From the NCBI GenBank assembly GCA_021234155.1, contig JAJEKV010000005.1, positions 23,199,584-23,263,583 of the forward strand: a stretch of DNA of 64,000 bases, in the 5' to 3' direction. Below, piece after piece: positions 41,163-60,990 of this stretch. This DNA is from Isoetes taiwanensis. Lineage: Eukaryota; Streptophyta; Lycopodiopsida; Isoetales; Isoetaceae. The notes beneath the pieces were generated by a model that was given only the letters and a program-made list of their open reading frames with translations, was not told the origin of the DNA and made no database searches. Numbering within the stretch: position 1 is the stretch's first letter; each line of letters starts with the position of its first letter. A program made the position numbers and the translations under genes.

Positions 41163-41515
41163 TGCTATGGACAAAAATAGCAAGTTAGGGTTTCCTTTAC
41201 CTAAATAGACAAGGGTTAGGGCTAGGGTTTCCCATTATCCCTTTAAGCATGTGGGATAATTGGGTATGGCCCACTTGCCTTTATTAACTAGGTGGCATAA
41301 AGTGTCCACATGGGAAAATGTGTACATAGATAAATGTGCACATGGGTAAATGTGCACATTAATAAAATGTACACACCTTGCAAGTTGCCCCCTAGGGTGC
41401 TACCTGCTTGGCTACACGTCGGCGTACACGTCAATCGGGATGGCGTGTACGCGTGACGAGGCAGTACAGTATACATCTTAGGACCATATACTGTGCTGGA
41501 GCGTCACATTCTCCC
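41163..41515 (-). mobile_element. Truncated LTR E (3' LTR of chromovirus copy 1)
   Basis: The last ~350 bp of the family LTR (CTATGGACAAAAATAGCAAG to GGAGCGTCACA), nearly identical to 59560-59899. It is followed by TTCTCCCCACCTTG, the minus-strand polypurine tract (41516-41529). The left ~1.2 kb of this LTR is missing. Confidence 0.7.
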
Positions 41516-42400: not shown

Positions 42401-43669
42401 CTAAGCACAAATCGACATGCCTGAGCCGATTTCTTCGGAGATGACCTTGCCGTCCCATTGCTCCATAAACTGTGGGTACTGCTTTATTAGATCCTTCTTA
42501 AGTACCCATGTCGCGTCTTCCACCGGCAAGTGTTTCCACTTGACCAAATATTGGAGAAACTCTTATCTCCTTGTTTTCTTGAAAGCTTTATCAAGAATCA
42601 ATTCTGGAACTATTTTCAGCTGCTCTTCTATCATTTCCAACAACTTTGCAGTGTCTAAGACTTCATCTGGATTTGGAGTATGCTTCTTCAACAAACTCAC
42701 GTGGAAGACTTTATGAATCTTTAGGTGTGCTGGTAGGTCCAACTTGTAGGATTGATTACCTACTCTCCTGACTATTCTGAAGGGTCCAGCCCACCTTGGA
42801 GCAAGCTTCTTACAATTTCCGATGCGGAGCTTCGCCTGCTTTACTTTGATCTTGAGCCACACGTCGTCACCAACTTGGAACTCTCTGATTGTCCGATGCT
42901 TGTCGGCGATGCTCTTTTGTCGACTCCTTGCTGCAAGAAGATATCCTCGAACCTCTTCCACCAACTGCTGCATGTCGGCCAACATTTGCTGTGAAACCTC
43001 TACTTTTGACATGAGATTGTGCTAAGTGTCTGGAGTTAGACATTGATAGCCGTAGTTGATCATGAACGGCGACATTTGGGATGATTCCTGCTTGGTGCTA
43101 TTATAAGCGAACTCCACCAAGTGAATAAACTCTTCCCACATACTCTGCTTGTTCCAGACATAGTTTCGTAGCATATCTTCCAAAATTCTATTGGCCCGTT
43201 CTATTTGCCCATCCGTCTGAGGATGATAGGCCGTGCTCATGGATAGTTTCGTCTGAATCGTCGCAAAAAGATCTTGCCAAAAGGCACTCATGAACTTCGG
43301 GTCTCTGTCGGAGATGATCTCTCTCGGCATGCCATGGAGCCTGAAGATTTCTTTGGTGAAAAGCTTCGCTGTATCCATCGCTATGTCGGTGGTCCTGCAA
43401 GGCACAAAATGTGCCATCTTCGACAACTTGTCGACCACAACCATCAAAGCATCCTTCCCTCTTACTGTCCTTGGAAGCCCTGTTATGAAGTCCATGCTGA
43501 TGACCTCCCACTTAGCGTTCGGCACCGCTAAAGGTTCCAAGGCTCCTGGAATTCGAAGCTGCTCTGCCTTCGTTTGCTGACATAGCTGGCACTCTTTGAT
43601 GTGGCGAGCTACCTGCTTCTTCATTCCTGGCCAATAATAGCTGCTGCGCACCTTGAAATATGTCTTCAT
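42401..43669 (-). pseudogene. Chromovirus copy 1: integrase core and C-terminal chromodomain
   Basis: Minus strand. 43669-43022: integrase with HHCC-type zinc region ([10 protein letters not shown]) and DDE core: ISMDFITGLPR, IISDRDPKFMSAFW, and TAYHPQTDGQIERANRILED supplying the final Glu. TAG at 43022-43024 interrupts. 43012-42563: GKSIADKHR-type C-terminal region with VGDDVWLKIK and LAPRWAGPFRIV, then FHVSLLKKH. TAA at 42563-42565 interrupts again, and the same frame continues (42562-42401) as a chromodomain, EFLQYLVKWKHLPVEDATW and a following acidic helix. The chromodomain defines the element as a Ty3/gypsy chromovirus; such domains steer integration to marked chromatin. Confidence 0.85.
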
Positions 43670-46129
43670 AAATCCTGCATGGCCAGCTATTGGACTGTTG
43701 TGGGTGTCGGTGGAGAATCAACTTCCTTACACCTGATGATTCGGGCACACACAACTTGTCTTTATGGTACAACATGTTGCCTTCCTTCTTATAATGTTTG
43801 AAGGCTTCCCGTTCCTTATCTGTTCTAGCCTCCCTAGAGAGGCTTGCCCATACTTCCTTGAAATCACTATCCAATGGCAATGTCTCCTCAATTTTCTTAC
43901 CAAACTCACTCGAAAGAGTTGATATAGCATTACAATGCGTTCTCGTCCCGAATGGTCTCCTAGAAAGGGCATCTGCAACAATATTAAGCTTGCTGGGCTT
44001 ATACACTATGTCAAAATCATACTCCTCAAGGAATTCCATCCACCTCCTTTGCCTTAGGTTGAGGAGTGGTTGGGTAAAAATATATTGAAGGCTCTGGTGA
44101 TCAGTATCTAACTGAAACTTCCTCCCCAGCAAATAATGCCTCCAAATCCTTAGTGCCCTGACAATGGCTAGCAACTCCTGATCATGGGTTGGGTAGCGCG
44201 TCTCAGCGTCGTTCATCTTCCTGGAGTCGTAAGCTACTACCCGCTCTTCCTGCATGAGCACTGCACCTGTGGCTATCTTACTTGCGTCTGTCGCCACAAG
44301 CTTGTCCTTCTCTGGGTCTGGCAAGGTCAAGACGAGGGCGGTTGTCAAAGCTTCCTTCAACAATTCAAGCCCTGCTTGGGCTTTCTTGTGCCAATGATCT
44401 GCCCAATCTTTCACTTTTTCCGCCCTCGTCAAGTCTGTTAGCGGGGCCGCTATCTTTGCAAAGTTCTTCACAAACTTCCTGTAGTACCCTGCTAGGCCAA
44501 GAAAGCTTCTGACCTCATGGACATTCTTTGGTGCCGGCCACTGAATCAGTGCTTCAATCTTGGCAGGATCCGTCGAAATTCCTTCTGCTGAGATCACATG
44601 ACCCATGTATTCCACCCTCTCTGTTGCGAAGTGGCACTTCGACAACTTGGCGTACAACTGGTGCCTCCTCAACTTCTCGAGCACTCTCCTTAGGTGTTGT
44701 ACGTGTTCTTCCTGGGATCTGCTATACACCAGAATATCGTCAAAGAATACTATCACAAAAGTATCCAAGAACTCCCTGAAGATGTCGTTCATGAGCCTCA
44801 TGAACGTTGCTGGGGCATTTGATAAACCAAATGGCATTTTACCGTGAACTCGTAATGCCCATACCTGGTCCTGAAAGCCGTTTTGTGGGCGTCTTCTTCC
44901 TTGATTCTGATTGGATGGTAGCCCGACCTTAGGTCAATTTTGGAGAAGACTTTTGTCCCTTGGAGCTGATCCATCAAGTCATCCGATCTGGGGAGCACAT
45001 ACTTATTCTTGATGGTGTGTTTATTCAACTGCCTGTAATCTATGCACATCCTCAAGCTGCCATCCTTCTTCTTCACAAAAAGAATGGGTGCTTCAAATGG
45101 AGAGACGCTAGGTCTAATGAAGCCTAGGTCGAGCAACTCCTGCAATTGCTTCTTTAGCTCCGTCAGCTCCTGTGTCGTCATTCTGTATGGAGCCTTGCTC
45201 GTTAGCTTCGTTCCTGGTTCGAGTGCTATCTCACACTCGACTCCCCTGTAAGGAGGAAGTTGCTCGATCTCATCTGGGAAGAGATCATGGAACTCCGTGA
45301 TCAACTTAGCTATCTGCTTGGGCAACTTGCTGAGCACCTTGTCTTCCTTGCTTTCTTCTGACTCGGGCTCTTCGGTCTCAAGCTTGAAGATATATGCTAC
45401 CTGCTCGTTCTTTATGCACTTGAGCCGCCGCTTACTAGACATACACTGCATGATGGGCACAACTTCTTTACCTGTGATCTCGATGATCTTGCCGTTGGGC
45501 GCTGTGAGGGTCACCTTCCGCTTTCCACAATCAATGATGGCCCCCGCTGGTCCAAGATACCCCATTCCTATGATCAAGTCATACTTCCCGATACCCATTA
45601 CTTCTGCCCCCATCTGGATGTTAATCCCTGGCAAGTCAATGTCGAAGTTTATCCTCTTGCCTGCCGTTTGTCTTACTGCTCCACTTGCTAACACTACGGG
45701 CCTCGGCTTTGACTTCAATGGTTTCAACTTCAACATCTCTACCATTCTTGGGGACGCAAAGTTGTGGCTACTTCCGGAGTCTATCAAGACTATGAAAGAC
45801 TTGGCCTTGGCCTTTTCTACTGTGGAAATTACCTTATACTGATTCTCTGCTTGTTCTGTATCTATGGCAGCAAAAATGTGACACTCATCCTGAATATAGT
45901 CGCGTGCTGCCTCGCCGTCGTCGTCAGACGGGGTGTCCCATCCACCCAACTCCGCTAGCGCTACGCTCATGACGAAGGGGCAGTTCGCTGTCCTGTGGCC
46001 TGGCTGGAAGCACCTGAAGCAAAGCTGCTTCTCTATACACTTCTGCCTCTTCTCCTTGGGCATTGCTTGCAAAAAGGACCGCACTGCTTTGGAGTAGTTT
46101 GATCCCTCCTGCTTGTCTTTGAAGGACAC
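43512..46129 (-). pseudogene. Chromovirus copy 1: zinc knuckle, protease, RT and RNase H
   Basis: Minus strand, two overlapping frames. Frame one (46129-44798): CCHC knuckle [14 protein letters not shown] (residues 37-50 of the frame), retropepsin [15 protein letters not shown], then RT start [20 protein letters not shown] and [14 protein letters not shown] one-base shift near 44840 moves to frame two (44837-43512): [18 protein letters not shown], the catalytic [28 protein letters not shown], RNase [17 protein letters not shown] and [20 protein letters not shown], ending near the integrase N-terminus where another shift (near 43690) leads into 43669-43022. Catalytic residues are intact; the copy is dead through frameshifts and stops. 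Confidence 0.9.
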
Positions 46130-47051
46130 CTGCTTCTTCTCCTGCTGCTTCCCATAGTTGCCACTATATGGGGCCTTTGCTGGACCCGGGCTAGCTGCTC
46201 TAGAGCTATAGCTTCCTGTTGCATTGCCCTTATCCTGATAATCTGCTGTTTCTGCCCACTGTACTGAGGCCCCGTTCCTTGCAAGCTCACCGCCTTGGAT
46301 TCTACTTCTGACATGATTGCTCTTACCAACTTCCTTATCTCATCATTTAACCCTTCGATGTATCCTTCCACTGCGTGCCTTTCGCTCAACTTGGGCGCAT
46401 ACAATCTGAGCTTCATGAACTCCTCTGTGTACTTTTGCACAGACCTGTTGCCCTGCTGCAATCGGTGAAACTGCTGCATCATGTGACACTTATGTTCTCG
46501 TGGTACATAATGGCGCTTGAAAGCCTTAGCAAACTTCTTGAACCTACAACTGTCCCTGTTCAAGCCATGGGCCTTGGCATAGCCCTTCCACCAAATGCGT
46601 GCTGCTCCCTTAAGGTTGGCTGTTGCCACCCTGCCTTTGTCCTTGTCCTTCATGCTATAAGCGTTACCATACTCACTCATCTCATCTAGCCAAGCTTCTG
46701 TTTCCATGCCTGATCTGCTGTCTCCTGAGAATTGCTCGAGTTTTCTGGCCTTCCACACATTACCCAGTGCCGAATCTACCTTCTTTTGATAGTCTGAGTC
46801 TTTGTGTCTCTGTGTCTGCCATCTCTACGGTCTTGGACCTGTTCCACCTCTTCCTCGGAATCGGAGTCCAAATCCGAGCTTGAGTCGGAGGATTCCGTGC
46901 TGGGGGACCTCCTTCTCTTGCTCTTCCTCTTGTCCTTTCCAGCCTTTCGAGGTGGTGCCTCTGGCAACTGGACGTTGTCGTTTGGGCCAACTCCTGCTTG
47001 TGCTGCCAAGAAAGCCTTTATTTTCTCAAGGTCTGTTCTTATCTGCGACAT
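46033..47051 (-). pseudogene. Chromovirus copy 1: gag
   Basis: Starts MSQIRTDLEKIKAFLAAQAG (47051), with a Ser/Asp/Glu-rich basic-acidic linker (RRSPSTESSDSSSDLDSDSE). A frameshift near 46770 leads to the capsid-like part (46758-46033): KLEQFSGDSRSGMETEAWLD, AARIWWKGYAKA, FKRHYVPREHKCHMMQQFHR, LQQGNRSVQKYTEEFMKLR. This is the Retrotrans_gag region. A further shift joins the CCHC frame at 46129. Unlike copy 2, only ~340 bp separate gag from the primer-binding site here. Confidence 0.85.
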
Positions 47052-47113
47052 TTCCTCCTCAGGAGCATCTTACCTTATTAAAATTCATCAAGTCTTAAGG
47101 TGATTATGGCCAA

Positions 47114-47182
47114 TGTCTCACATTGTGCGCCCAGGGCTCGACCTAAATTTTAGGTTAGTGCTCTGGCGCATAGTGTGAGACA
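47114..47182 (-). repeat. Intergenic hairpin cassette, copy 1 (chromovirus copy 1 leader)
   Basis: TGTCTCACATTGTGCGCC.. GGCGCATAGTGTGAGACA outer arms with an inner ACCTAAATTTTAGGT palindrome. Corresponds in position to the cassette at 58057-58125 of copy 2. Confidence 0.75.
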
Positions 47183-47374
47183 TTTCCACTTTTGGTCAAA
47201 TTTTAGCTGAACTTTTTAGTTTACTTGCTTTTCAATTCTACTAACTGTTACTAGCTTAGCATATACTACAAAAATGAGAAAAACTTTTCCCACTTTTTCG
47301 AGGTTTGAGAATCCTACTAACTTAGTACTAGTGGGAGCATGGCCAGTGCTTTGCTCTTGGTCACCAAGAACATT

Positions 47375-47386
47375 GCTCTGATACCA
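47375..47386 (-). other. Primer-binding site, initiator-Met tRNA type
   Basis: TGGTATCAGAGC on the minus strand, one base inside LTR B. Marks LTR B as the 5' LTR of copy 1. Confidence 0.85.
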
Positions 47387-47387
47387 C

Positions 47388-48882
47388 TGTGACGTCCCCT
47401 ACTCATATACGGTGCACTCACCGTATACAAACAAAAGTTCATCCCCCACACCAGCTCCACACTGATACAGGGCCCTCCATGTATCACTGCAACCTTGGTG
47501 AGTTCCAGTGGGAAGAATGAAGGGGTCATTTGCCATGTCTCCCTCAGGGCCGACCTAGCTGCGGAAGCGTAAACATACATGTCAGTATACAACATCAATA
47601 TCACATAACCATCTCGAAGGATGGCACATCTCATATCTGCATAGACAAAGATCAGCACATCACATGGGGAGCAAGGCTCAGACTCGAGGGGATGACTGAC
47701 GGCTTGGGTCTCCAGAGGTCATTGCAGACAGAATTCATGGCAATGGATTTGGCTGGCATAAGAGCATGACTAAGGGTAGTCCACTCCATCCGCCCCTCCT
47801 GTGCACACTTTGCAGAGTAGGTTGAAAAGTGTTGGGGACCTGACTGTAGCCCGCCGGATGCATAGCCAAAGGGGCTATTCCTGGGTTGCATCTCCCCAGT
47901 TCCGATAGGGCAGGTAGGGTCACTCCCTCCAGAGATCTACATGCTGACTCAAGGTGACTAGAGGGCCACTGCCCTTATTCGACTTGAACCCAATGGAGAG
48001 TGACGCATCACTCCACGGGTGTCGAGCCCATGCCTTGCCCACACGCAGTGGCAAGCCATTAGACCTAGTCCACAGGGATCCCCGATAGGCTTTACACACC
48101 AGAGGGATCGTTCTCGTGAGTTAGACATGAACCTCCTTATGAGCCAGTCTGGCCCCTTAACCCACAACCCGGTGTGGTTCTTGTACACAGGCCGAATTTA
48201 CAGTGTGCTAAAGAGGCTAGCTAGGAACATCAACTACCAGGCCTTAGGGTCTCTACCCCCCTTCCCAATACAGTGAGTTCACAGAGATACATCATCATAC
48301 ACATCACAGAAGAACTAAAGAACAAGATCTAATCTAAATCACAGAGTTAGGTTCTTTAGTTAGGGCTCGATATCTAGGTATCTAGATGGCTGCTATGGGC
48401 AATTTAATAGGCTAAACCTACTTATTCAATGACTGGGAGGCGGTTTTGGCTATTAAACTGAGCTAGATCGCTCAGACAGAGTTTGGAAGGTGGGTTGGGC
48501 TCCTGGAGCAAGCAAAACAGAGACCTAGAATGCTATGGACGAAAATAGCAAGTTAGGGTTTCCTTTACCTAAATAGACAAGGGTTAAAGCTAGGGTTTCC
48601 CATTATCCCTTTAAGCATGTGGGATAATTGGTTATGGCCCACTTGCCTTTATTAATTAGGTGGCATAAAGTGTCCACATGGGAAAATGTGTACATGGATA
48701 AATGTGCACATGGGTAAATGTGCACATTAATAAAATGTACACACCTTGCAAGTTGCCCCCTAGGGTGCTACCTGCTTGGCTACACGTCGGCGTACACGTC
48801 AATCGGGATGGCGTGGTAATGCTGCGATTTAGGGCAAAGATGCGATATCGCCTTAGGACCGTGATATCGTTGAACGCCGACA
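47388..48882 (-). mobile_element. Chromovirus LTR B (5' LTR of copy 1)
   Basis: From TGTGACGTCCCC (47388). Colinear with LTR C until about 48813; then the terminal ~70 bp diverge but keep the CTTAGGACCGT loop, now between CGATATC/GATATCG arms instead of ACAGTATA/TATACTGT, ending in a degenerate GAACGCCGACA near 48882. The left-end hairpin TATACGGTG/CACCGTATA is intact. Confidence 0.7.
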
Positions 48883-49189
48883 TCGGAGGAGCTCTGCCGG
48901 AATAGAACTCGTCAGCAAAAAGGGTTGTACACCAAGAAGTATCATTTATACCCCTGCTGACGTGACAGGGGTAATTTTAAGGTCACGTTGGCCCGCGTGG
49001 GGTTCATGGGTTTCCACTGAAAACGCCGGTGGCGTGCATTACCCCCTACTAAACATCTCCCTGTCAGATATCTTTTTTTATATTGAAGGACGTCATTCTA
49101 TTCATCGTCACATCATGAGTACATTCTACATCACTTTCTACATATCACATGGAAGCCAATCCACTACCTAGCCATATCACATATCATAT
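48883..49189. other. Short unclassified stretch
   Basis: Contains a CCCCTGCTGACGTGACAGGGG inverted motif near 48952-48972 but no ORF or clear element. Confidence 0.35.
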
Positions 49190-49540
49190 AGAAGTTAATC
49201 CACTACCTAGGCATGATATGCTAGAAGCTGCGTTGCATTAGCAGCTTAGAAGTTAATCCACTACCTAGGCATGATATGCTAGAAGCTGCGTTGCATTAGC
49301 AGCTTAGAAGTTAATCCACTACCTAGGCATGATATGCTAGAAGCTACGTTGCATTAGCAGCTTTGCATTATTCTATATATCAATATGGAAGTCAATCCAC
49401 TACCTAGGCATATCACATATCATATAAAAGTCAATCCACTATCTAGGCATGATATGCTAGAAGCTGCGTTGCTTTGCATTACATATCACATGGAAGCCAA
49501 ACCACTACCTAGACGCGATATGCTAGGAGCTGCTTTGCAT
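49190..49540 (+). repeat. 58-bp tandem repeat, about five units
   Basis: Unit AGAAGTTAATCCACTACCTA, GGCATGATATGCTAGAAGCT, GCGTTGCATTAGCAGCT. Three near-perfect copies start near 49191, 49248 and 49306; more diverged copies extend to 49540. Direct repeats without unique spacers, so not CRISPR. Confidence 0.8.
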
Positions 49541-49564
49541 TTGATTATCGAGTATATATATATG

Positions 49565-49735
49565 GCAGATTTAAGATCCCTACCACAGGACCGGTTGGTC
49601 GTACTTGAACCCGTGATTTCGGGGCAATAGATTTTTAAGATCTTCATTACTAGACCGATATTGGCCAGGTTTGAACCCATGATCTCGGATATGATAGTTT
49701 AAGGTCCTGCCACTAGACCATGTCCCGAATATGAC
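49565..49735 (-). mobile_element. Dimeric tRNA-like SINE head
   Basis: Minus strand: A-box-like ACATGGTCTAGTGGC and B-box-like GGGTTCAAACC, ~33 bp apart (49727-49668), directly followed by a second pair, CGGTCTAGTAATGAAG and GGGTTCAAGTAC (49655-49595). Both have tRNA-like spacing. The TGGTCTAGTGG..GGTTCAAACC pattern is typical of tRNA-derived plant SINEs. No proper cloverleaf is formed, so these are not functional tRNA genes. Confidence 0.5.
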
Positions 49736-51745
49736 TGTGGTTATTTTATAGAATCTCTCAACTATTATTTTTCAAACAATATTCCAAGGATTACTGCAAT
49801 AATCTTTTAAATATTCATTTCTTTGTTCTCTGTTCCAACAGAATAATTTGTTTTGCCATAGCCATACCCTTGTTATCCCACTGCCTGGAGCTTGCGAACG
49901 GCTCTAACATCTAAGTCAGCCCGCCAGGCTCTGCTGGCTCATTTCTTCAAAAATCCTGCACTGCTTTTCGAATCTATAATTTCTGTTTTGCCCAATATTT
50001 TAAAAAAGGCATCAGATTTTCGCGCATGTTCTTCAATTCTTTTTTCACAAATAGATTTTTCGCTATGATTCGGTTTTTCTACTATAAAAATAGATTAGGA
50101 TCTTTTTGCAGATATTGATGGACAGCTTGATCAAATTTCAATGTCTAAGTTGCTTTATTTTCTTCAAAATGTAGCCTTATTTTATCAATATGCTTCAGAC
50201 TTCGATTTGATGCTTTCTTTTGTGGCCATAGTTGATAAAACTTGTCAGACCTGGGTTTAAAGGAGGTCAACCCTTCTCACTCAGGGATCATGACAAATAA
50301 TCCTCTTGGCCTGCCATAATTCTCTCGACGATAGGGTTCACCTCTCTAGACACAAATTGATACGATTCATTGTTTATGGAACGCTAACAACTGAACAACA
50401 ACATCTTATTTGAAGATCAAGATCCAAGAACATCATATATATCAGGTAAATACATTGATGAGCACGTTTAACCACCCAACCGGGTCCACAAGGTTATGGC
50501 AAAGGCGCTGGCAATCAATATCTGGCTACTCCACGTAGACTATGAGCAAAGAATATCTGGCTACTCCACGTAGACCACAGATCAGAAAATAATTGCAAAT
50601 CTGCAGAGTCGCTGTAGCAGTAATTTGTGACCCCCTGTCACCTTTTTGGCCATTACTCCCTCATACGGATCATACGGATGAACTAGGATATGTTCCATCT
50701 TAATTCGGAAACTAGACTCTGTGCCGGTTCCAACGAGGTAAAGGTCGTTGCAATCCGACCTCTGGTTGCCGAGATATGTCCAACTGAAGTTTTGGTTCTA
50801 TTTATAGATCTCCCTGCGACTTTAGCCTTTTTTAGTATGCAGTTGCCTTTTTCTCAAAATATCTCCTTGCCTTTAATTAGATTATATGACTTATCATATG
50901 GATATTATCTATGGCCTTTTTGTGCAAAATAGTCCGCCCCTTTTGCTTGATCATTGATTCCCTTTGATATCTCTTCAACCAATGGTTCTCGACCCCATCC
51001 TAGATATCATAACCTTGCCATAGTTCCACAACTTTGCCATATTTTGCCATGCCCCATAACCCTGACGCCGTGGACCACTCCCCCGTGCTATGATACGGAC
51101 TATGACTCCGTATCACAAATCCTTGCAAATTATATCAACCTAATTGTCTTCTACCATTGGATCTGATTGTCGTTATATTATACAATCTCTGAATATTCAT
51201 TTTCAAGGAATTTTCTATGGATTATTGCTTTCAAATATTCCATTCAAGAAAAGATTCAATTAAGCGAAAATAAATATTCTCTATTCCTGCAAAAATAATC
51301 GGCTCTTCCATAGCCATATCCTTATTATACCAATGCCTGGAATTAACACTTAAGTCAGCCATCCAAGCTGTGTTGAAATCTTGAGCTCATTTCTTTGAAA
51401 ATTTGCCGAGCTTTTTTTATCTACAATTTTTGTTTTGTCCAATATTTTAAAAAAGTCATCAGATTTTCATGCATGTTCTTCATTCTAACCTAATGTTTCA
51501 TTTTGCGGGTACATTTTTGGCATAATCTGGTTTTGCTACTACAAAAATAGATATTGATGGGTAGATTTATCAAATTCCTGTGTCTTAGTTGCTATGTCTT
51601 CTTCAAAATGTAGCCCCTTTTATCAATCTACTTCTAACTTCTATTTGATCCTTCCTTTTGTTTCCATAGTTGGCAAGGATCTGGGTTTAAGTGGAGGTGA
51701 CCCCTCCCCTCAAGGATATGATAGCAAATAACCCTCAAGGCCAAT
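49736..51745 (+). repeat. Diverged ~575-bp direct repeat pair with 0.85 kb between
   Basis: Copies at about 49736-50316 and 51170-51745, colinear through CCAATATTTTAAAAAAG, CATCAGATTTTC, TTCTTCAAAATGTAGCC and GGGTTTAA.GGAGGT. The spacing and identity pattern resemble LTRs of an old, short non-autonomous element (TRIM/LARD-like), but no primer-binding site or polypurine tract was found. The intervening DNA (50317-51169) has no recognisable gene. Confidence 0.55.
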
Positions 51746-52019
51746 ATGTAACATCTCAATTATGCATATATCTCCTTATAGTTCCACATCTCAGGCTTAC
51801 AGATCCACAATAGCATTTACCTCGAGAGGATTATAGCAAATAACCCTTGAGGCTGGTGGACCCAGAGGGTTATTTGCCATCATTTCCTCGAGGGGAGGGT
51901 TGACTTTCCTTAAACCCATGTTGTAACATTCCATGTATTGTACGTACAACTTGGGATTATTATATCGTCTTGCCCGTGTTATATGTCCATGCGGATACCC
52001 CTTCCACGTCTCTTATAAT
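51746..52019. repeat. Inverted fragment of the preceding repeat end
   Basis: 51835-51925 contains, on the minus strand, the GGGTTTAAGG..GGTCAACCC.. and GCAAATAACCCTC motifs that occur on the plus strand at 51680-51743, making a local inverted repeat. No gene. Confidence 0.5.
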
Positions 52020-52904
52020 TCATATCACCCATGTTGAGGGGATATTGGGGTCCGGTGTATCCATGAACTCCGTGATCAACTTAGCTATCTGCTTAGGCAA
52101 CTTGCTGAGCACCTTGTGTTCCTTGCTTTCTTCTGACTCGGGCTCTTCGATCTCAAGCTTGAAGATATATGCTACCTGCTCGTTCTTTATGCACTTGAGC
52201 AGCCGCTTACTAGACATACACTGCATGATGGGCACAACTTCTTTACCTGTGATCTCGATGATCTTGCCGTTGGGCGCTGTGAGGGTCACCTTCCGCTTTC
52301 CACAATCAATGATGGCCCCTGCTGGTCCAAGATACTCCATTCCTATGATCAAGTCATACTTCCCGATATCCATTACTTCTGCCCCCATCTGGATGTTAAT
52401 TCCTGGCAAGTCGATGTCGAAATTTTTCCTCTTGCCTGACGTGTGTCTTACTGCTCCACTTGCTAACACTACGGGTCTCGGTTTGGACTTCAACGGTTTC
52501 AACTTCAACATCTCAACCATTCTTGGGGACGCAAAGTTGTGGCTACTTCCCGAGTCTATCAGGACTATGAAAGACTTGGCCTTGGCCTTCCCTACTGTGG
52601 AGATTACCTTATACTGATTTTCTGCTTGTTCTGTATCTATGGCAGCAAAAATATGACACTCGCCCTGAATATAGTCACGTGCTGCCTCGCCGTCGTCGTC
52701 CGACGGGGTGTCCCATCCACCCAACTCCGCTAATGCTGCACTCATGACGAAGGGGCAGTTCGCTGTTCTGTGGCCTGGCTGGAAGCACCTGAAGCAAAGC
52801 TGCTTCTCTATGCACTCCTGCCTCTTCTCCTTGGGCATTGCTTGCAAAAAGGACCGCACTGCTTTGGAGTAGTTTGATCCCTCCTGCGTGTCCTTGAAGG
52901 ACAC
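52020..52904 (-). pseudogene. Chromovirus copy 2: zinc knuckle and protease, truncated before RT
   Basis: Closely matches copy 1: [43 protein letters not shown]. It ends at about 52060 where homology to copy 1 stops; RT, RNase H, integrase, chromodomain and the 3' LTR of this copy are not present in the window. The frame is offset from the gag frame by a shift near 52950, as in copy 1. Confidence 0.85.
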
Positions 52905-53839
52905 CTGCTTCTTCTCCGGCTGCTTCCCATAGTTGCCACTATATGGGCCTTTGCTGGACCCGGGCTAGTTGCTCTAGGGCTATAGCTTCCTGTTGCCTTG
53001 CCCTTATCCTGATAATGCTGCTGTTTCTGCCCACTGTACTGAGGCCCCGTTCCTTGCAAGCTCACCGCCTTGGATTCTGCTTCTGACATTGTCTTGGGGT
53101 TGATTGCTCTTACCAACTTCCTTATCTCATCATTCAACCCTTCGATGTATCCTTCCACTGCGTGCCTTTCGCTCAACTTGGGCACATACAATCTGAGCTT
53201 CATGAACTCCTCTGTGTACTTTTGCATTGACATGTTGCCCTGCTGCAATCGGTGAAACTGCTGCATCATGTGACACTTATGTTCTCGTGGTACATAATGG
53301 CGCTTGAAAGCCTTAGCAAACTTCTTGAACCTACAACTGTCCCTGTTCAAGCCATGGGCCTTGGCATAGCCCTTCCACCAAATGCGTGCTGCTCCCTTAA
53401 GGTTGGCTGTTGCCACCCTGCCTTTGTCCTTGTCCTTCATGTTATAAGCGTTACCATAATCACTCATCTCATCAAGCCAAGCCTCTGCTTCCATGCCTGA
53501 CCTGCTGTCGCCCGAGAATTGCTCAAGCTTCCTGGCCTTCCATACATTTCCCAATGCTGAGTCTACCTTCTTCTGATAGTCCGAGGTCCTCGTGTCCTTG
53601 TGTCTGCCGTCTTTTTGGTCCTGCACCTGCGCTTCCTCTTCTTCGGAGTCGGAGTCGAAATCCGAGCTTGTGTCGGAGGATTCCGTGCTGGGGGACCTCC
53701 TTCTTTTGCTCCTCTTCTTGTCCTTTCTCGTCTTCTGAGGTGGTGCTTCCGGCAACTGGACATTGTTATCTGAGCTACCCCCTGCTTGCGCTGCCAAGAA
53801 GGCCTTTATCTGTTGAAGGCCCGTTCACATCTGAGACAT
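52808..53839 (-). pseudogene. Chromovirus copy 2: gag
   Basis: The start equivalent to copy 1 is MSQM at 53839, but codon 5 is TGA (53825-53827); an open 329-codon frame follows from 53797 (MAAQAGGSSDNNVQLPEAPP). It keeps KLEQFSGDSRSGMEAEAWLD, AARIWWKGYAKA and FKRHYVPREHKCHMMQQFHR. Gag proteins assemble the particle that packages element RNA. Better preserved than copy 1 gag. Confidence 0.85.
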
Positions 53840-54168
53840 TTCCTCCTCGGAGTCATTGGGCCAAATGCTTCATACAGGTTCCTTGCCGGGTGTGGCCTGG
53901 ACGGAGTCTGTTCTTCTCTACGGGCTCGCCGTTCTTGTTCAGCTGTGCCTGGAGCTCTAGCTGCATACACAAGTAGATCATGGCTTTACAGTTAGCTTTA
54001 TTTGTTCTATTGCATTGTATGTGTTTGTTGGTATAGTTGTGGAATAAAATACATCAACAAAACATTTAAAGTGCAAAAGAAAACGTATTCATATATATGA
54101 TATTAAATACAATGCCCCCGGGATCAAGAGTCTAACTAATCTTGAGATCGCCGGTAGGATGGGTTATC
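53840..54168 (-). other. Spacer between accessory ORF2 and gag in chromovirus copy 2
   Basis: No ORF. Absent from copy 1, whose sequence jumps from the gag start to the equivalent of about 58010. Confidence 0.5.
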
Positions 54169-55679
54169 CTAGAGGAACTTCTTAACTTGGGCCGTTCCTA
54201 CGGACCGTCCCAAGTTCCTGAGGATGTTTGTTGATGACCCGCCCTGCAAGGCTTGCACCAAGTCTTCTACCCTGCGGTCAGACGTGTAGGCCGCGGTCAC
54301 TGCTAGTCTTCCCTGTCGTGGGTAGGGTATGGCGAAGTCGAAGATGTCAAGTGCCATCGTTCTCTTGACTAAGATGGCATAGTCGATGTTTGGAGCCAGC
54401 CGAGCATGCCTGCCAAAGCCTGAAAGTGCGATGAGCATGAACACTCCTTCTTCGCCCCTTGGGCTGAATTTGCGGTGAATTACCGCTATTCTCCCGTCCA
54501 TCAGCAGGGGAAGATAGTACCTCAGTGACCTGTCCCTGCCCGCTGCTGTTGACTCGTCGTCTCCTCGGGCACCGGTTCTATGTCTTCCCGCATACTCATC
54601 GACGTCGATCTCTGTGAGGTCTCCATAGTCCCTGACTGTCAATGTAATTCGCCGCAGGTCGATCTCGCCTCTCCTCTGAACACCGGCATCAAAATATTCG
54701 TGGTCTTGCCACGGATCCCCATCCGTTCTTGAATGGCATAAAACTCTTCTTCAGGCGGCAAGTCTCGAGCTTCCATCATTTGGCGGATACTGTTGTACGC
54801 CTGAATATCTGAAGCCGACTCCCCTGTATAAGTTCGGCTTCTTTGACCTGGATCGGGAACTCGGAAGCCTCCCGGTCGATGAAGTCATCCAGATCTGGCT
54901 GTTGCCGCAGAAGATACAGCAACTCGTCGAGTCGGTACTCCCTGCCTCTGCATTCTGGGAGGTTCTGGATGTCACTAAGGAGCAAGTACTCCTGGCCGTC
55001 GATGATGATGGGAGCTAGGCTTATGATACCTAGCCCGAGCGAGGGAGCGATCCTGAAGGTCCGCCGGTCCTGTTCGAAAATTGGCATCACCTGTTCTGCT
55101 AACTGGCGCTCTTCTTCGGGGTCGAGCTCGACGTAGTCTTCGTCGTCTGAGTCGACCGCTTCCTCATCTGCTCTTCCTTCTTGTTCCGCCTGGTAACAGC
55201 TGACCTTCTGCTGAAGAGGCTAAGGGGTCTACATCCATGGGAGGAATAGAGGTTTCCCCCATGGGGTTCTGGGCTCGGTGGAAAAGAAAGATGGCTAGAG
55301 CAGCGGTGTAGGAAAAATACTTGTTTTTGTTAGCTGTCAAGACCATGTAGTCTGGCAACCTAGCAGCTTTATTGGTCAGATATTTCGCAATGTTGGGGAC
55401 ATCACCTAAGGCTGCTTGAAGGGACTGCCTAGGGACAAAGTATCATGTGCAAGGGGGGAGTTGTACTAAGGACGGTCCTACCTTAGCTTGGAATTCGGTC
55501 ATGACTTCCATGTAAGCTAGGGTTGCTTGCAACGTGGCTTGGACATCTATCTGTTTCCGGAAAACTTGAAAATTTGCATTGACATCAGCGTCGGCTGCAT
55601 GGGCACTGGCGCTGTACCATCGCCTAAAATCAGTAGTTGCCATGGATCTAGAGGGGATTAGGCTATCAAACAGATGCAA
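54169..55679 (-). pseudogene. Accessory ORF2 of chromovirus copy 2, unknown function, disrupted
   Basis: Minus-strand coding-like region of about 500 codons between the H3-like ORF and gag. A start at 55641 (MATTDFRRWYSASAHAADAD) or 55679. TGA at 55443-55445 interrupts, and the same frame continues (YFVPRQSLQAALGDVPNIAK, YLTNKAARLPDYMVLTANKN). After frame changes come an acidic segment, IAPSLGLGIISLAPIIIDGQ, LLLSDIQNLPECRGREYRLD, and finally 54642-54169 with LRYYLPLLMDGRIAVIHRKF and LVQALQGGSSTNILRNLGRS. I recognise no family. The balanced composition and long broken frames indicate a former protein. It may work with the H3-like protein. Confidence 0.55.
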
Positions 55680-55956
55680 AAGCGCCTCAGGGAGCTGGAA
55701 GATCGCCTAGAAGGTCGGGAGCAGACTTGTAGGATGCTAAGTGAGAAATGAGGCCTATTTATAGACAAGGGACAAACCCTAATTTTTGGATGACTTGGGA
55801 ACTTGCTGGGGTTGGGCAATCTTGACCTATTTTGAAGTCCAAATGGGGACTGGAAGGCTAATTTGAGGGTTTGAGCATGAATAGGACTGCCTAGAGGACC
55901 TATTGCAACAAACTAAAGGTCAATTGGGTGTGGGATGGAAGAGAAAATGTTGGAAG

Positions 55957-56023
55957 GTCTCACATTGTGCGCCTGGGGCTCGACCTACAATTTAGGTTAG
56001 GCCTCTTGCGCATAGTGTAAAAC
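55957..56023 (-). repeat. Intergenic hairpin cassette, copy 2
   Basis: GTCTCACATTGTGCGCC outer arm, CGACCTACAATTTAGGTTAG inner part, then TTGCGCATAGTGTAAAACA; the right arm is the most diverged of the five. Confidence 0.7.
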
Positions 56024-56163
56024 AATTGGCCCAATTTGGTCAATACTTGTCCAATCTGGGTAAACTAATGGTCAAAACATACTAGTCTCATCGAGTTAGG
56101 CAAGGCAAGATTGACCCCTTACTTGGCCGATTTGGAGGCGTTTTGGACCACTTTTGGTGTGAA

Positions 56164-56232
56164 GGTCTCACGTTGTGCGCCCGGGGCTCGACCTAAAATT
56201 TAGGTTGGTGCTCTGGCACACAGTGTGAGACA
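56164..56232 (-). repeat. Intergenic hairpin cassette, copy 3
   Basis: GGTCTCACGTTGTGCGCCCG, inner CGACCTAAAATTTAGGTTGG, right arm CTGGCACACAGTGTGAGACA. Lies ~140 bp past the H3-like stop codon. Confidence 0.75.
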
Positions 56233-56373
56233 TTCCTCACTAATCGGTCTAATTATGACCAATTTGACTAAAACAAAAGCCATTACTTGCTAACTCAACT
56301 TAATTAAGTACATTTATACACTTATAATTTACTCAAAAGCACTTTGTATTCACAAAATTTATGATTTACAAAA

Positions 56374-57660
56374 TTAGTAAGGCTCTCCTTTAATATGACT
56401 GGCCAAGTGCATATCTTTCTTCATTAGAGTTACCCTTTCTGCGTGTACTGTGCATGCCATGGAGTCTTCAAAATGCTGCACCAGCTTCTGCTCCACTGCT
56501 TCTTGTAAAGCTAACAGCATCTCGCCTGTTACTCTCATTTCGGTGCTGTATTCTTGCACAACTTCCTTTACCAACCTGGCGAAGGGTGCACAAGGAAAAA
56601 GGAAGCCGAAACTCCTCTGGAAGTGCCGGATCTCCCTGATTGCTCGATTCAGGTTCGAGTTGACTTTCCTTTTGGGCGGCTTCTTTGGAGGTTTGGGCTT
56701 CTCTGGTGGCAGCTTTAGAGTCTGCTTCTTCGATGGATGTCCACCTACGATGAATGTGACCTTATTCGCCTGATAATAAGAGTTGTAGGCCTCCAATTTC
56801 TTCATGTACTGCTGGTGCTCCTTCAGCTTCTTCTGATAGACTCTGATAGGGTCTATCACGTATGACTCCTGGGCAGGCCGCGACGGCTTCTTATTGTCCT
56901 TATCCTTCCCCCATGTCGGGTATGGCGGGGGTGCCTGCGCCTGCTCTGGCTGCTCCTGGTCCTGTGCTCCCTGCTCGTCACCTGGGGGCTTGGAAGAACC
57001 CCCGCCTTCAAGATTGGGGTTGAAGTCTTCGTCATCCGAGTCGTCGGAGGAGACGAGCTGGTCGGCTGGCCGTTCCGTAATGACGACCTTCACGTTCGGC
57101 GTCTTCTTTGTCTTTCTCTTAGGCTCCTCCACGTACTTGCCCTTCTTCTTTTTCTTTTCCTCGGCCTCCTTGGCCTCCTTCTCCTCCCTCTTCCTCTTCT
57201 TCTCCGCCTTTTTCTTCTCTCGGCGCCGTTCCTTCGCCTCATGCTTCCGAATCCAGACCGCGAGTTCCTCCTCCAGGGTCGGCTCGGGAGTCGGCTCAGG
57301 AATCGGCTCCCTCTGCTCTTCGTGTGCTTTGATCTCTCGCTCTTGCTCGGCCTTATCTTGCTTCTCCTTCTCTATCTGCTCGAGTACTCTCTGCATTTCG
57401 TCGTCATCGCCCTCTATTTCCTCGAGCACTTCTGTCGAGGCGTTCGAGTGCACGTCCTCTTGGTCTACCTGCTGGTCTACCTCCTGGTTTTGTGCTCCCT
57501 GCTGGGATCCTTCCCCTTGGTGCTCATCTGAGACTCTTCCCTCGCTCGACGAAGGTTGGTCATCTCTCGCAAGAAGGCGCTCCCGAAGCATCTGCTGAAT
57601 CTGGGTGCTGGTGGTTTCGTCTCCTCGAGGAACCCGAGCAGTTTGTTTGGTTCTCGCCAT
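56374..57660 (-). CDS. Retrotransposon-encoded histone H3 (tail and fold split by long linker)
   Basis: Intact 428-codon, intron-free ORF between the primer-binding site and gag of chromovirus copy 2. Residues 1-9 are MARTKQTAR; after Met removal this equals histone H3 residues 1-8, followed by VPRG instead of KSTGG. Residues 10-339 are a low-complexity linker: Gln/Glu-rich (40-130), strongly basic KKAEKKRKREEKEAK-type helix (144-187, NLS-like), acidic SSDDSDDEDF (204-213), Pro/Lys-rich (315-333). Residues 340-428 align gaplessly to the H3 fold and C-terminus (H3 47-135), 42 of 89 identical by hand: AIREIRHFQRS (alphaN), PFARLVKEVVQ (alpha1), ALQEAVEQKLVQHFEDS (alpha2), HAERVTLMKKDMHLASHIKG (L2-alpha3). 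Kept: R49, R69, R83, C110, H113, R116, K122, D123, L126. Changed: K9V, K56R, R63P, K64C, K79S, R128S, R129H. Likely nuclear and able to pair with H4; function unproven. Confidence 0.93.
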   Translation of the reverse strand: MARTKQTARVPRGDETTSTQIQQMLRERLLARDDQPSSSEGRVSDEHQGEGSQQGAQNQEVDQQVDQEDVHSNASTEVLEEIEGDDDEMQRVLEQIEKEKQDKAEQEREIKAHEEQREPIPEPTPEPTLEEELAVWIRKHEAKERRREKKKAEKKRKREEKEAKEAEEKKKKKGKYVEEPKRKTKKTPNVKVVITERPADQLVSSDDSDDEDFNPNLEGGGSSKPPGDEQGAQDQEQPEQAQAPPPYPTWGKDKDNKKPSRPAQESYVIDPIRVYQKKLKEHQQYMKKLEAYNSYYQANKVTFIVGGHPSKKQTLKLPPEKPKPPKKPPKRKVNSNLNRAIREIRHFQRSFGFLFPCAPFARLVKEVVQEYSTEMRVTGEMLLALQEAVEQKLVQHFEDSMACTVHAERVTLMKKDMHLASHIKGEPY

Positions 57661-57844
57661 GTCTTACGGTTCGCCGATCGGAGGTCGGGCGCCCAAAAAT
57701 CGCCACAAAAAGCGGGAGCAATTTTCTAGAGAGGAAGGTCTATTTATAGGTTGGGCAATGTTAGGTCAAATTTTAAGTTGCTCTTTTTAATGTGTCAGGG
57801 CACCACTTAAAACATATACTTATTTCAGACTTTTCTAAGCCACT

Positions 57845-57912
57845 TGTCTCACATTGTGCGCTGGGGCCTCGAGCTAATAATTAGATCGAGCCTCTGGCGC
57901 ATAGTGTGAGAC
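57845..57912 (-). repeat. Intergenic hairpin cassette, copy 4
   Basis: TGTCTCACATTGTGCGC / GCGCATAGTGTGAGACA outer arms. The inner stem is CTCGAgCTAAT/ATTAGaTCGAG, different in sequence from the other copies (CTAAAATTTAG type) yet still paired. About 185 nt upstream of the H3-like start codon. Confidence 0.75.
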
Positions 57913-58056
57913 ATTGTGCATTTTAGACTAAATTATGTGATTTCCAGGCATATTCCTAGGGGTCTAATATAGAAATCTAGCTAATTCCTACCTTAAAATT
58001 CGATTTAGCATCTTACCTTATTAAAATTCATCAAGTTTTAAGGTGATTATGGCCAA

Positions 58057-58125
58057 TGTCCCACATTGTGCCCCCAGGGCTCTACCTAAAATTTAGGCTG
58101 GGCCTCTGGCGCATAGTGTGAGACA
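58057..58125 (-). repeat. Intergenic hairpin cassette, copy 5
   Basis: TGTCCCACATTGTGCCCCC, inner CTACCTAAAATTTAGGCTGG, right arm GGCGCATAGTGTGAGACA. Orthologous to the cassette at 47114-47182. Confidence 0.75.
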
Positions 58126-58317
58126 TTTCTGCTTTTGGTAAAATTTTAGTTGAACTTTTTAGTTTACTTGGTTTTCAGTTCTACTAACTGTTACTAGCTT
58201 AGCATATACTACAAAAATGAGAAAAAAATTTCCCACTTTTTCGAGGTTTGAGGATCCTATCAAGTTAGTACTACTGGGAGCATGGCCAATGCTTTGCTCT
58301 TGGTCACCAAGAACATT

Positions 58318-58329
58318 GCTCTGATACCA
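58318..58329 (-). other. Primer-binding site, initiator-Met tRNA type
   Basis: TGGTATCAGAGC on the minus strand, one base from LTR C; identifies LTR C as the 5' LTR of copy 2, upstream of the H3-like ORF on the same strand. Confidence 0.85.
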
Positions 58330-58330
58330 C

Positions 58331-59899
58331 TGTGACGTCCCCTACTTATATACGGTGCACTCACCATATACAACCAGGAGTTCATCCCCCATACCAGCTC
58401 CACACTGATACAGGGCCTTCCACGTATCACTGCAACCTTGATGAGTTCCAGTGGGAAGAATGAAGGGGTCATTTGCCCTGTCTTCCTCAGGGCCTACCTA
58501 GCTGCAGAAGCGTAAACATACATGTCAGTATACAACATCACATCACATAACCATCTTGAAGGATGGTGCATCATATATCTGCATAGACAAGGATCAGCAC
58601 ATCACATATGGGGATCCTACCCAAGGCTCAGACTCCAAGGGATGACTGACGGCTCGGGTCTCCAGAGTTCATGGCAGACAGAATTCATGGCAATGGATTT
58701 GGCTGGCATGAGAACATGGCTTAGGGTAGTCCACTCCATCCGCCCCTCCTGTGCACACTTTGTAGAGTAGGTTGAAAAGTGTTGGGACCTGACTGTAGCC
58801 CGCCAGATGCATAGCCAAAGGGACTATTCCTGGGTTGCATCTCCCCAGTTCCGATGGGGCAGGTAGGGATCACTCCCTCCAGAGATCTACATGCTGACTC
58901 AAGGTGACTAGAGGGCCACGGCCCTTATTCGACTTGAACCCAATGGAGAGTGACGCATCACTCCATGGGTGTCGAGCCCATGCCTTGCCCAGACGCAGTG
59001 GCAAGCCATTAGACCTAGTCCACAGGGATCCCCGGTAGTATCGTTTTCATGAGTCAGACATGAACCTCCTTATGAGCCAGTCTGGCCCCTTCACCCACAA
59101 CCAGGTGTGGTTCTTGTACACAGGCCGAATTTACAGTGTGCTAAAGAGGCTAGCTAGGAACATCAACTACCAGGCCTTAGGGTCTCTACCCCCCTTCCCA
59201 ATACAATGAGTTCATAGAGATACATCATCATACACATCACAGAAGAACTAAAGAACAAGATTTAATCTAAATCACAAAGTTAGGTTCTTTAGTTAGGGCT
59301 CGATATCTAGAGATCTAGATGGCTGCTATGGGCAATTTAATAGGCTAAGCCTACTTATTCAATGACTGGAAGGCGTTTTAGGCTATTAAATTGATAAAAT
59401 ACCTGATCCTTAGCTCGCTCCTCCTGCCCTGAACTCGACCATCCTGCTGAACTGCTAGAAGATGAAGCTAGGAAGGGAAACTAATGAGCTAGATCGCTCA
59501 GACAGAGTTTGGGAGGTAGGTTTGGCTCCTGGAGCAAGCAAAACAGAGACCTAGAATGCTATGGACGAAAATAGCAAGTTAGGGTTTCCTTTACCTAAAT
59601 AGACAAGGGTTAGGGCTAGGGTTTCCCATTATCCCTTTAAGCATGTGGGATAATTGGGTATGGCCCACTTGCCTTTATTAACTAGGTGGCATAAAGTGTC
59701 CACATGGGAAAATGTGTACATAGATAAATGTGCACATGGGTAAATGTGCACATTAATAAAATGTACACACCTTGCAAGTTGCCCCCTAGGGTGCTACCTG
59801 GTTGGCTACACGTAGGCGTACACGTCAATCGGGATGGCGTGTATGCGTGAGGCAGTACAGTATATGTCTTAGGACCGTATACTGTGCTGGAACGTCACA
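58331..59899 (-). mobile_element. Chromovirus LTR C (1569 bp, 5' LTR of copy 2)
   Basis: TGTGACGTCCCC (58331) to GGAACGTCACA (59899), complete. Left-end hairpin TATACGGTG/CACCATATA (one mismatch); right-end hairpin ACAGTATA/TATACTGT around TCTTAGGACC. It has inserted into the reverse transcriptase of the older Ty3/gypsy element on its right, whose frame runs into the LTR end. Confidence 0.85.
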
Positions 59900-60990
59900 A
59901 TGCTCAAATCTGGTTTTTTCAAAAGTGTGGCTTCACTTATTGATAAAATGAGGAAGTCAAAAGCCTCTTGACATTTTGGAATCCATGTGACAGGTATGTG
60001 CTTGCTCTCAGACTTAGAAAACTTGCCTACTCTTGTCAATTTAGAGATAGGACTTACAATGTGAGCAAAATTTGGGATATACATTTTAAAAAAACTAGTC
60101 ATACCAATAAAACTTTTAACCTGCTTCAAATTCTTGGGAGATGCTTGCTTCTTCAGGGCTTCAACCTTGTCTTGTGCTACTTGAATGCCTTGATTGGATA
60201 CTTCATGGCCTAAGACTGTCCCTTTGATGCAAAAAAAGGTACATTTCTTGGAGTTAAGATTGTCTCCAGAGCTTCTACATAAAGAACAGATCTTTGCAAG
60301 TAATTCCACGTGGTTAGTAGGATAAGAACCTAAACAAAGATCATCTAGATACACTCTGAACTCCTTAGTAGACATTGATTTAAAAATGACATCCATTGCT
60401 CTTTGAAAAACAGCTAATGCATTCATCAAATCAAATGGCATCTTTTTCATGGCATATGTACCTCAGGGGGTGATGAATGAAGTCTTTGGCTGGTCTTCCT
60501 CCTTGATACTAATTTGATTGAACCCTAAGAAACCATCCAGAAAGGAGTATATATCTTTACCTACAACAACATATAGAATTTCCTCCAGAAATGGCAAGGG
60601 GTAGCAATCTTTTATGGTGGCCTTGTTGAGATCTCGATAATCTATAAAAATCCTCAAGACACCATTTTTCTTTTCCGCTGGAACCATTCAGGGTTGATAA
60701 TCTCCCCAATGACATCGGCATCCATCATATTATATAATTCTTCTTTGTTTAGTTCTAGAAGTGAAGCATTTATTCTCTTTAGCTTTTGGAAAATAGGTTT
60801 GCGTTCCTCTTTGATTTTAATCTCAAATTGGCGTACCTCTTTTTTGATGCCAATATCTAGCATAATCACAGGGGGTCTTTTTTGTGTTTTTGTACGATAT
60901 TCACAAAGGTTTTCCTATGATTTCATGGCCGTATTCATCCAGGTGTACTGAACAGTATTTCTAGAGTGCCGCTTATCTTGGCCATTCATT
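59900..60990 (-). pseudogene. Older Ty3/gypsy element: reverse transcriptase
   Basis: Minus strand, broken frames. 60869-60654: VRQFEIKIKEERKPIFQKLK and NKEELYNMMDADVIGEIINP, the region before RT. 60687-60463: VPAEKKNGVLRIFIDYRDLN, KDCYPLPFLEEI, FLDGFLGFNQISI. 60450-59900: MPFDLMNALAVFQRAMDVIF, catalytic FRVYLDDLCLGS, KCTFFCIKGTVLGHEVSNQG, SFIGMTSFFKMYIPNFA. Sequence type differs clearly from the chromovirus RT, closer to Tat/Athila-like elements. LTR C interrupts it at 59899/59900, dating it as older. Confidence 0.8.

Follow-up and report, generated by a model that had tools for sequence, protein, structure and literature searches.

A histone H3 gene with a giant tail insertion lies inside a Ty3/gypsy LTR retrotransposon of the quillwort Isoetes taiwanensis, between the primer-binding site (PBS) and gag, and it is almost certainly encoded by the element itself, as a gene of a whole chromovirus family. 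The presence of such a long-conserved gene in the family suggests that this genomic parasite has a hand in the chromatin that it inhabits. The gene was found in a stretch of 64,000 nucleotides of contig JAJEKV010000005.1 (the window), in which the H3-bearing element (copy 2) and another copy of the family (copy 1) have the following features:

58331 to 59899, minus strand: 5' LTR of copy 2, TGTGACG...CGTCACA, 1569 bp, identified by its terminal motifs and by alignment to other LTRs
58318 to 58329, minus strand: primer-binding site TGGTATCAGAGC, one base past the LTR, identified by sequence
58055 to 58127, minus strand: palindromic hairpin d in the leader, common to copy 1 at 47112-47184
58012 to 58018, minus strand: splice-donor-like AGGTAAG in the leader
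57845 to 57915, minus strand: hairpin c
57740 to 57748, minus strand: TATA box TATAAATAG before the H3 gene
56374 to 57660, minus strand: H3 gene, 428 aa, with ARTKQTAR N-terminus, charged insertion of ~330 residues and C-terminal H3 histone fold
56162 to 56234, minus strand: hairpin b
55954 to 56026, minus strand: hairpin a
55755 to 55763, minus strand: TATA box TATAAATAG before ORF2
54169 to 55643, minus strand: ORF2, the second accessory gene, start at 55643, broken by a stop and frame changes
53961 to 53967, minus strand: splice-acceptor-like TATGCAG, 111 bp ahead of the gag start region
52808 to 53856, minus strand: gag (Retrotrans_gag), frame disturbed near the start
52065 to 52838, minus strand: protease region, ending abruptly at 52065
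42404 to 48815, minus strand: copy 1 of the family, with gag, protease, RT, RNase H, integrase and chromodomain; 5' LTR from 47388

The H3 gene and its element

A preliminary description of this DNA, made from the letters alone, had reported an intact frame of 428 codons with ARTKQTAR after the initial Met, placed between the PBS and gag on the sense strand of the element, and all of this is borne out: the frame runs from a start codon at 57660-57658 to a stop ending at 56374 with no internal stop, ARTKQTAR occupies residues 2-9, and LTR, PBS, H3 and gag all lie on the minus strand. The final 89 residues do align without gaps to H3 47-135, and our recount gives 44 identities to the host's own H3 (44/89) in place of the 42 counted by hand; the maximum in 20,000 shuffles of the same residues was 16. 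The histone profile proposed as a check of the C-terminus (Pfam Histone, PF00125) matches residues 320-423 with E=7.8e-23 and 81.5 bits (curated cut-off 26.4), and the top matches by sequence in a phmmer search of the PDB are H3.3 and H3.1 chains, with E about 4e-21. The protein has the marks of a core histone H3, namely the H3 fold, an alignment that is ungapped through the C-terminus, and the H4/H3' contact residues. The ~330 charged residues between its two ends gave no Pfam match of their own; described earlier as a replacement of the middle of H3, the charged stretch is indeed present and is better read as a tail insertion common to the copies. AlphaFold models of the protein (monomer, shallow alignments) were too weak for use, with pLDDT of 52 and 58; a Foldseek search with the first model returned 28 matches, of which 24 are nucleosome or H3-H4 entries and four are at chance level.

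The order of parts in the family is LTR - PBS - hairpins - TATA - H3 - hairpins - TATA - ORF2 - gag - pol. The Ty3/gypsy hallmarks are present (LTRs of the TG...CA type, a tRNA PBS and a polypurine tract, which in copy 1 is CAAGGTGGGGAGAA, ahead of the 3' LTR start at 41508), and Pfam profiles place gag, protease, RT, RNase H and integrase in that order in copy 1. A chromodomain (PF00385, E=1.6e-8) follows at the integrase C-terminus of copy 1, after one in-frame stop, and marks the family as a chromovirus; it was seen in copy 1 alone, which is without H3, the stretches read for H3-bearing copies ending earlier. The 5' LTR of copy 2 has inserted into an older, fragmentary RT gene (59869-60462). 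Elsewhere in the window, an older LTR of the same type (39731-38120, minus strand), which shares ~73-75% identity with the LTRs of copies 2 and 1, is preceded by a polypurine tract, and there are two probable host genes, a purine permease (33249-34325, minus strand; PF16913) and an NLI-interacting-factor-like phosphatase (6210-7298, plus strand; PF03031).

The entire H3-ORF2 stretch of 4.1 kb, 53852-58007 in copy 2, is missing from copy 1. The join (47064/47065), at the gag start, carries an ATGCT/ATGACT microhomology, which fits a deletion; copy 1 has thus probably lost H3 and ORF2, and histone-free derivatives of the element exist. The converse, an insertion of the stretch into copy 2 alone, was dropped, as the same arrangement occurs at many genomic places.

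ORF2, which lies between H3 and gag, is broken in the window and open over 494 aa at another locus (L026:4455-5936); across 17 copies its dN/dS of 0.228 points to selection. The ORF2 products of L026 and L044 have no Pfam or PHROG match, and that of L026 has no match in the PDB; the pieces from the window gave weak matches, a 66-aa piece to two Pfam families under the cut-off and one PDB chain at E=0.12.

Copies across the genome

The H3 protein was searched against the assembly from which the window comes (1,658,258,908 bases in 1110 contigs), and the window-type gene was found at at least 98 places, the window included; these derive from 121 matching stretches, 23 of which are second pieces of a place, and the figure is a lower bound, 98 of 34,835 first-look candidates having been scored. 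For architecture we read 20 further places drawn from the 24 best matches, a non-random sample, over ~9.85 kb each, including ~6 kb past H3. Upstream of H3, the LTR is matched in 16/20 and the exact PBS in 12/20; downstream, within the ~6 kb read, ORF2 is present in 18/20, gag in 12/20 and protease-RT in 10/20. The sole copy without LTR, ORF2 and gag (L013) has the family's hairpins. Two whole LTRs were seen in none of the 20 stretches of ~9.85 kb. Since all copies were found through their H3 gene, these tallies say nothing on the share of family members without H3. The genome search for other copies and for LTRs around them, suggested in the preliminary description, has in this way upheld its central claim, namely that a Ty3/gypsy chromovirus has an H3 of its own: the gene recurs with element parts in 20 copies, which contradicts the possibility raised there of a host gene that has nothing to do with an adjacent retroelement, and it is under purifying selection.

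Selection and residue conservation

Selection was estimated by the pairwise Nei-Gojobori method on 21 copies including that of the window. The H3 core has a median dN/dS of 0.065 (205 pairs, median dS 1.05); the corresponding values are 0.21 in the tail and 0.171 over the full ORF, compared with 0.153 for gag (11 copies, 52 pairs), 0.143 for RT-RNase H (5 copies, 6 pairs) and 0.228 for ORF2 (17 copies), all of them rough ratios because dS is near saturation, pairs share history and post-insertion decay is mixed in. Tail residues 10-59 are weakly constrained (0.475). The uncorrected pooled pN/pS values are 0.128 for the core, 0.250 for gag and 0.339 for RT-RNase H. Judged from these codon alignments, the histone fold is the most constrained part measured, purifying selection on it being stronger than on gag or RT-RNase H. 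A core histone can therefore gain a tail of 330 residues while its fold stays under strong selection. At least one stop occurs in the aligned H3 codons of 13/21 copies; the other 8/21 are free of stops and may still contain frameshifts.

The two lysines of the N-terminus have fared differently. K4 (position 5) is K in 20/20 copies with data, whereas the K9 position is V in 18/21, L in one, S in one (a doubtful alignment) and K in one. Within the fold, C110, H113, A114, D123 and L126, which we take to lie at the H3-H3' and H4 contacts, and R49, R69, R83, R116 and T118, which we place at DNA, each persist in no fewer than 19 of the 20-21 copies with data; H113, R83, R116 and T118 are invariant in 21 copies, D123 and L126 are kept in all 20 copies with data, and C110 is kept in 19/21. 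Other nucleosome contacts have changed, R63 to P in 21/21 copies and R129 to H in 12/20. The stretch 87-90 of the core reads EMLL in the window family, as against SAVL; in H3 this stretch is described, in the accessible part of PMC9145170, as a chaperone recognition site.

Putative promoters and splice sites

Over the 20 stretches, 197 kb in all, TATAAATAG occurs 32 times in the sense orientation, 30 of them at the two promoter places, and twice in the antisense orientation. It stands 106-121 bp before the H3 start in 16/20 other copies (searched over 95-135 bp) and again 106-121 bp before ORF2 in 14/20 (searched over 95-150 bp). The upstream regions of the two genes in the window copy have hairpins in common, together with short collinear matches that are individually weak. 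On the simplest reading, H3 and ORF2 have putative internal promoters. A third TATAAATAG in the window, at 50806 on the minus strand, is followed by no minus-strand frame of at least 100 codons in the next 1.7 kb.

The donor-like AGGTAAG lies 340-380 bp ahead of the H3 start in 9/20 other copies, and the acceptor-like TATGCAG was found in 7/12 other gag-bearing copies, 104-111 bp upstream of the gag ATG region, or 137-144 bp upstream when measured from the aligned gag start. From these sites, gag-pol may come from an RNA with the H3-ORF2 stretch spliced out. The hairpins are near-perfect palindromes of 73 bp, a pair of which precedes each accessory gene in copy 2; among the 20 other copies, 12 have hairpin matches ahead of H3 and 12 have them behind it. 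Compensatory pair changes were not seen among five copies, and the four Rfam matches over 46000-60000 all fall below the gathering score.

A second family of H3 fusions

The genome was also searched with a canonical pepper H3, for which 150 matches were scored out of 9,022 candidates. Fifteen, at 96-98% identity, were taken as host H3 genes (four distinct proteins); the other 135 are 71-86% identical over the matched part, and many lie in open frames of 400-567 codons. One of these loci, L048, encodes a 409-residue protein from a MAITK start, before which the frame is also open; the protein ends in a near-canonical H3 core, and its tail differs from that of the window family. In a search with its residues 24-408, all 107 scored matches (107 of 11,821 first-look candidates) proved to be relatives, the best other one at 95% identity. 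We call these genes family B and those of the window type family A. Over five loci (L044-L048), median dN/dS of the family B core is 0.017 (10 pairs, median dS 0.61) and that of the tail 0.33 (6 pairs); stops are present in the gene in 3/5 loci. A recent capture was considered and dropped, as pS to host H3 is 0.83-0.98, which together with the core dN/dS points to an old capture under very strong constraint.

Relatives of ORF2 also follow the histone genes of family B in L044-L048, homology being detected between L026 and L046 at E=2e-5. In L046 another relative of ORF2 (E=1.5e-59) lies ahead of the core, and the stretch L046:1-1836 (sense of the match) is a mosaic in which a family A-like relative of ORF2 lies directly upstream of the family B core, the long tail being gone. 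We infer from the shared H3-ORF2 pair that family B is also an LTR element, any flanking LTRs or gag lying outside the stretches read.

Possible role of an element-encoded H3

The conserved residues of the fold fit a role as a nucleosome component, and the H3 encoded by the element probably acts as a nucleosome subunit together with H4, as predicted from its sequence. Taken as a whole, the evidence is, in our judgement, quite likely best explained by an element that supplies a nucleosome subunit pairing with host H4 and devoid of the K9 silencing site. The H3 would be transcribed from its own internal promoter, gag-pol possibly being made by splicing out H3-ORF2; the protein would enter the nucleus and pair with host H4, and the tetramer would be placed on DNA, most plausibly the cDNA or fresh provirus of the element, or else target chromatin. 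Its tail would display the K4 end (ARTKQTAR) without K9, and the nucleosome could then not take H3K9 methylation, one of the main marks of heterochromatin on transposons. As for the long tail, it might serve to retain the integration complex or to fend off silencers. Evasion of K9 silencing may be the main benefit, a proposal to which we give somewhat less than even weight. The chromodomain of the element may meanwhile read H3K9 methylation elsewhere, as that of MAGGY does according to the passages available of PMC3350952.

A histone fold can also be imagined outside nucleosomes, as a DNA-binding or dimerising module for the compaction of cDNA or the tethering of the integration complex, H4 pairing being secondary. 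The very long charged tail with its own constraint (dN/dS 0.21), the loss of R63, the alterations at 87-90 and R129 and the position of the gene just before gag would suit such a module, but H113, D123 and L126, presumed H3-H3'/H4 contacts, are kept in all 20-21 copies with data and ARTKQTAR is conserved though without evident use in packing, and we regard this possibility as unlikely. That the gene belongs to a family of host H3 variants, beside or into which a retroelement happened to insert, is hardly credible: copy 1, the same element without the H3 gene, speaks for it, but its join carries the microhomology expected of a deletion, and many loci show the gene surrounded by LTR, PBS, ORF2 and gag. 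Nor does a captured passenger without function, amplified by hitch-hiking as for fungal hAT elements, account well for the data. H3 copies amplified by transposons are known and can be inactive (reported in the available parts of PMC6710886 and PMC3538342), and 13/21 copies of the present gene have stops; yet the core dN/dS of 0.065 in family A and 0.017 in family B at median dS of 1.05 and 0.61, together with a promoter and a gene order that have persisted over that distance, largely refutes this explanation and leaves it very improbable.

A different question is whether family A is a centromeric-type H3 (CENH3), used to reach or reshape centromeric chromatin. In a tree of 21 rows, one branch (support 97/90) has host H3 and family B on one side and, on the other, the window family with two plant CENH3 rows, the latter provisional sequences. 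The motifs REIRHFQ, LIPRAPF and VTLMKKD look CENH3-like, as does a long divergent tail, a feature of CENH3s. The support is, however, that of a single branch among long ones, human CENP-A when added falls on the host H3 side of it, and constraints that group A with B (p-AU 0.068) or with host H3 (p-AU 0.073) are not rejected. Loop 1 is longer in CENH3 than in H3, but the window-type core has no insertion there relative to H3 and is two residues shorter than the CENH3s compared, and it is about equally far from plant CENH3s (43-44% identity) and from H3 (43-48%). A centromeric identity is accordingly improbable. The search for a donor by means of an H3 tree, proposed in the preliminary description, has thus yielded a tentative grouping with these provisional CENH3s, with a derivation from host H3 or a union with family B still compatible with the data.

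The nucleosome subunit supplied by the element, which we prefer, can be extended to both families, tentatively and with rather more doubt than belief. A lineage of plant LTR retrotransposons would long have kept two diverged forms of H3 with new giant tails, deposited on element DNA against H3K9 silencing; one would have a near-canonical core, with synonymous sites saturated relative to host H3, and the other a strongly diverged, perhaps CENH3-like one; and the outcome would be an epigenetic state that the transposon itself encodes, as a counterpart to a chromodomain reading the K9 mark. If the histone does enter nucleosomes, this would be the first retroelement known to us to supply the chromatin of its own copies, and it would offer a natural test of whether the loss of K9 at a transposon suffices to escape silencing. 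The system is also relevant to the contest over chromatin between plant genomes, that of the quillwort among them, and their transposons.

Comparison with known systems

Close relatives of the protein were sought among 5.8 billion protein sequences, and no candidate that was scored proved to be one, although this does not prove that there are none. The full ORF had a sole match, pepper protein P0002, a normal H3 fused to other sequence (scored over 7,997 of the candidates); the C-terminal 103 residues had no match among 24 candidates, and a shorter query found five divergent H3s (10 candidates). A scan of IMG/VR gave 58 pattern matches, none of them confirmed. A retroelement with a histone was likewise absent from a full-text literature search, as far as titles and abstract openings of the top-ranked matches tell, most subscription papers lying outside it. 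The claim that no equivalent had been described stands to that extent for retroelements; it fails for mobile elements and viruses at large, in which histones have been reported (PMC3538342, PMC6710886, PMC9145170, as partly available).

The nearest parallel is with hAT DNA transposons of the fungi Pyrenophora tritici-repentis and Pseudocercospora, which have captured H3-like (H3L) genes (PMC3538342, PMC6710886, in the parts covered here). These too are mobile elements with an H3-like gene, accompanied in Pyrenophora by another ORF of unknown function, and the Pyrenophora H3L, for which ESTs exist, bears insertions in its tail and corresponds to neither H3 nor CENH3. They differ in being DNA transposons with terminal inverted repeats, with 26 very similar H3L genes in one case and hundreds of RIP-inactivated copies in the other, and the parts covered report no gain for the element. 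The Isoetes gene sits between the PBS and gag of an LTR element and not beside a hAT transposase within terminal inverted repeats; its carrier is an old plant retrotransposon, the histone fold is under purifying selection and the promoters are conserved.

Single histones are also borne by viruses, for example an H4 by bracoviruses and an H3 by xenomaviruses (PMC9145170, as partly available). As in Isoetes, a parasite carries a single core histone with a longer, altered tail, which in the viral cases is shown or expected to enter host nucleosomes; the carriers there are DNA viruses or polydnaviruses and not retroelements. Among plant retroelements, Ty3/gypsy elements of orchids carry an ORF for an AlkB-type RNA demethylase (PMC9289625, in the sections available), again a gypsy lineage with a fixed extra gene, proposed to counter host surveillance, the extra gene being in that case an RNA demethylase. 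The same source lists 15 frequent extra domains from 121 angiosperm genomes, lycophytes being outside that screen, and no histone is among the nine named in the text seen. Tcn1, Galadriel, Tekay and Reina are chromoviruses, gypsy elements with a chromodomain, and the chromodomain of MAGGY binds methylated H3K9 (PMC3350952); the passages covered there mention no histone, whereas the Isoetes family adds to its chromodomain an H3 without K9. Mobile elements with captured genes are thus already known, and a histone in an LTR retroelement stands at the far end of that range.
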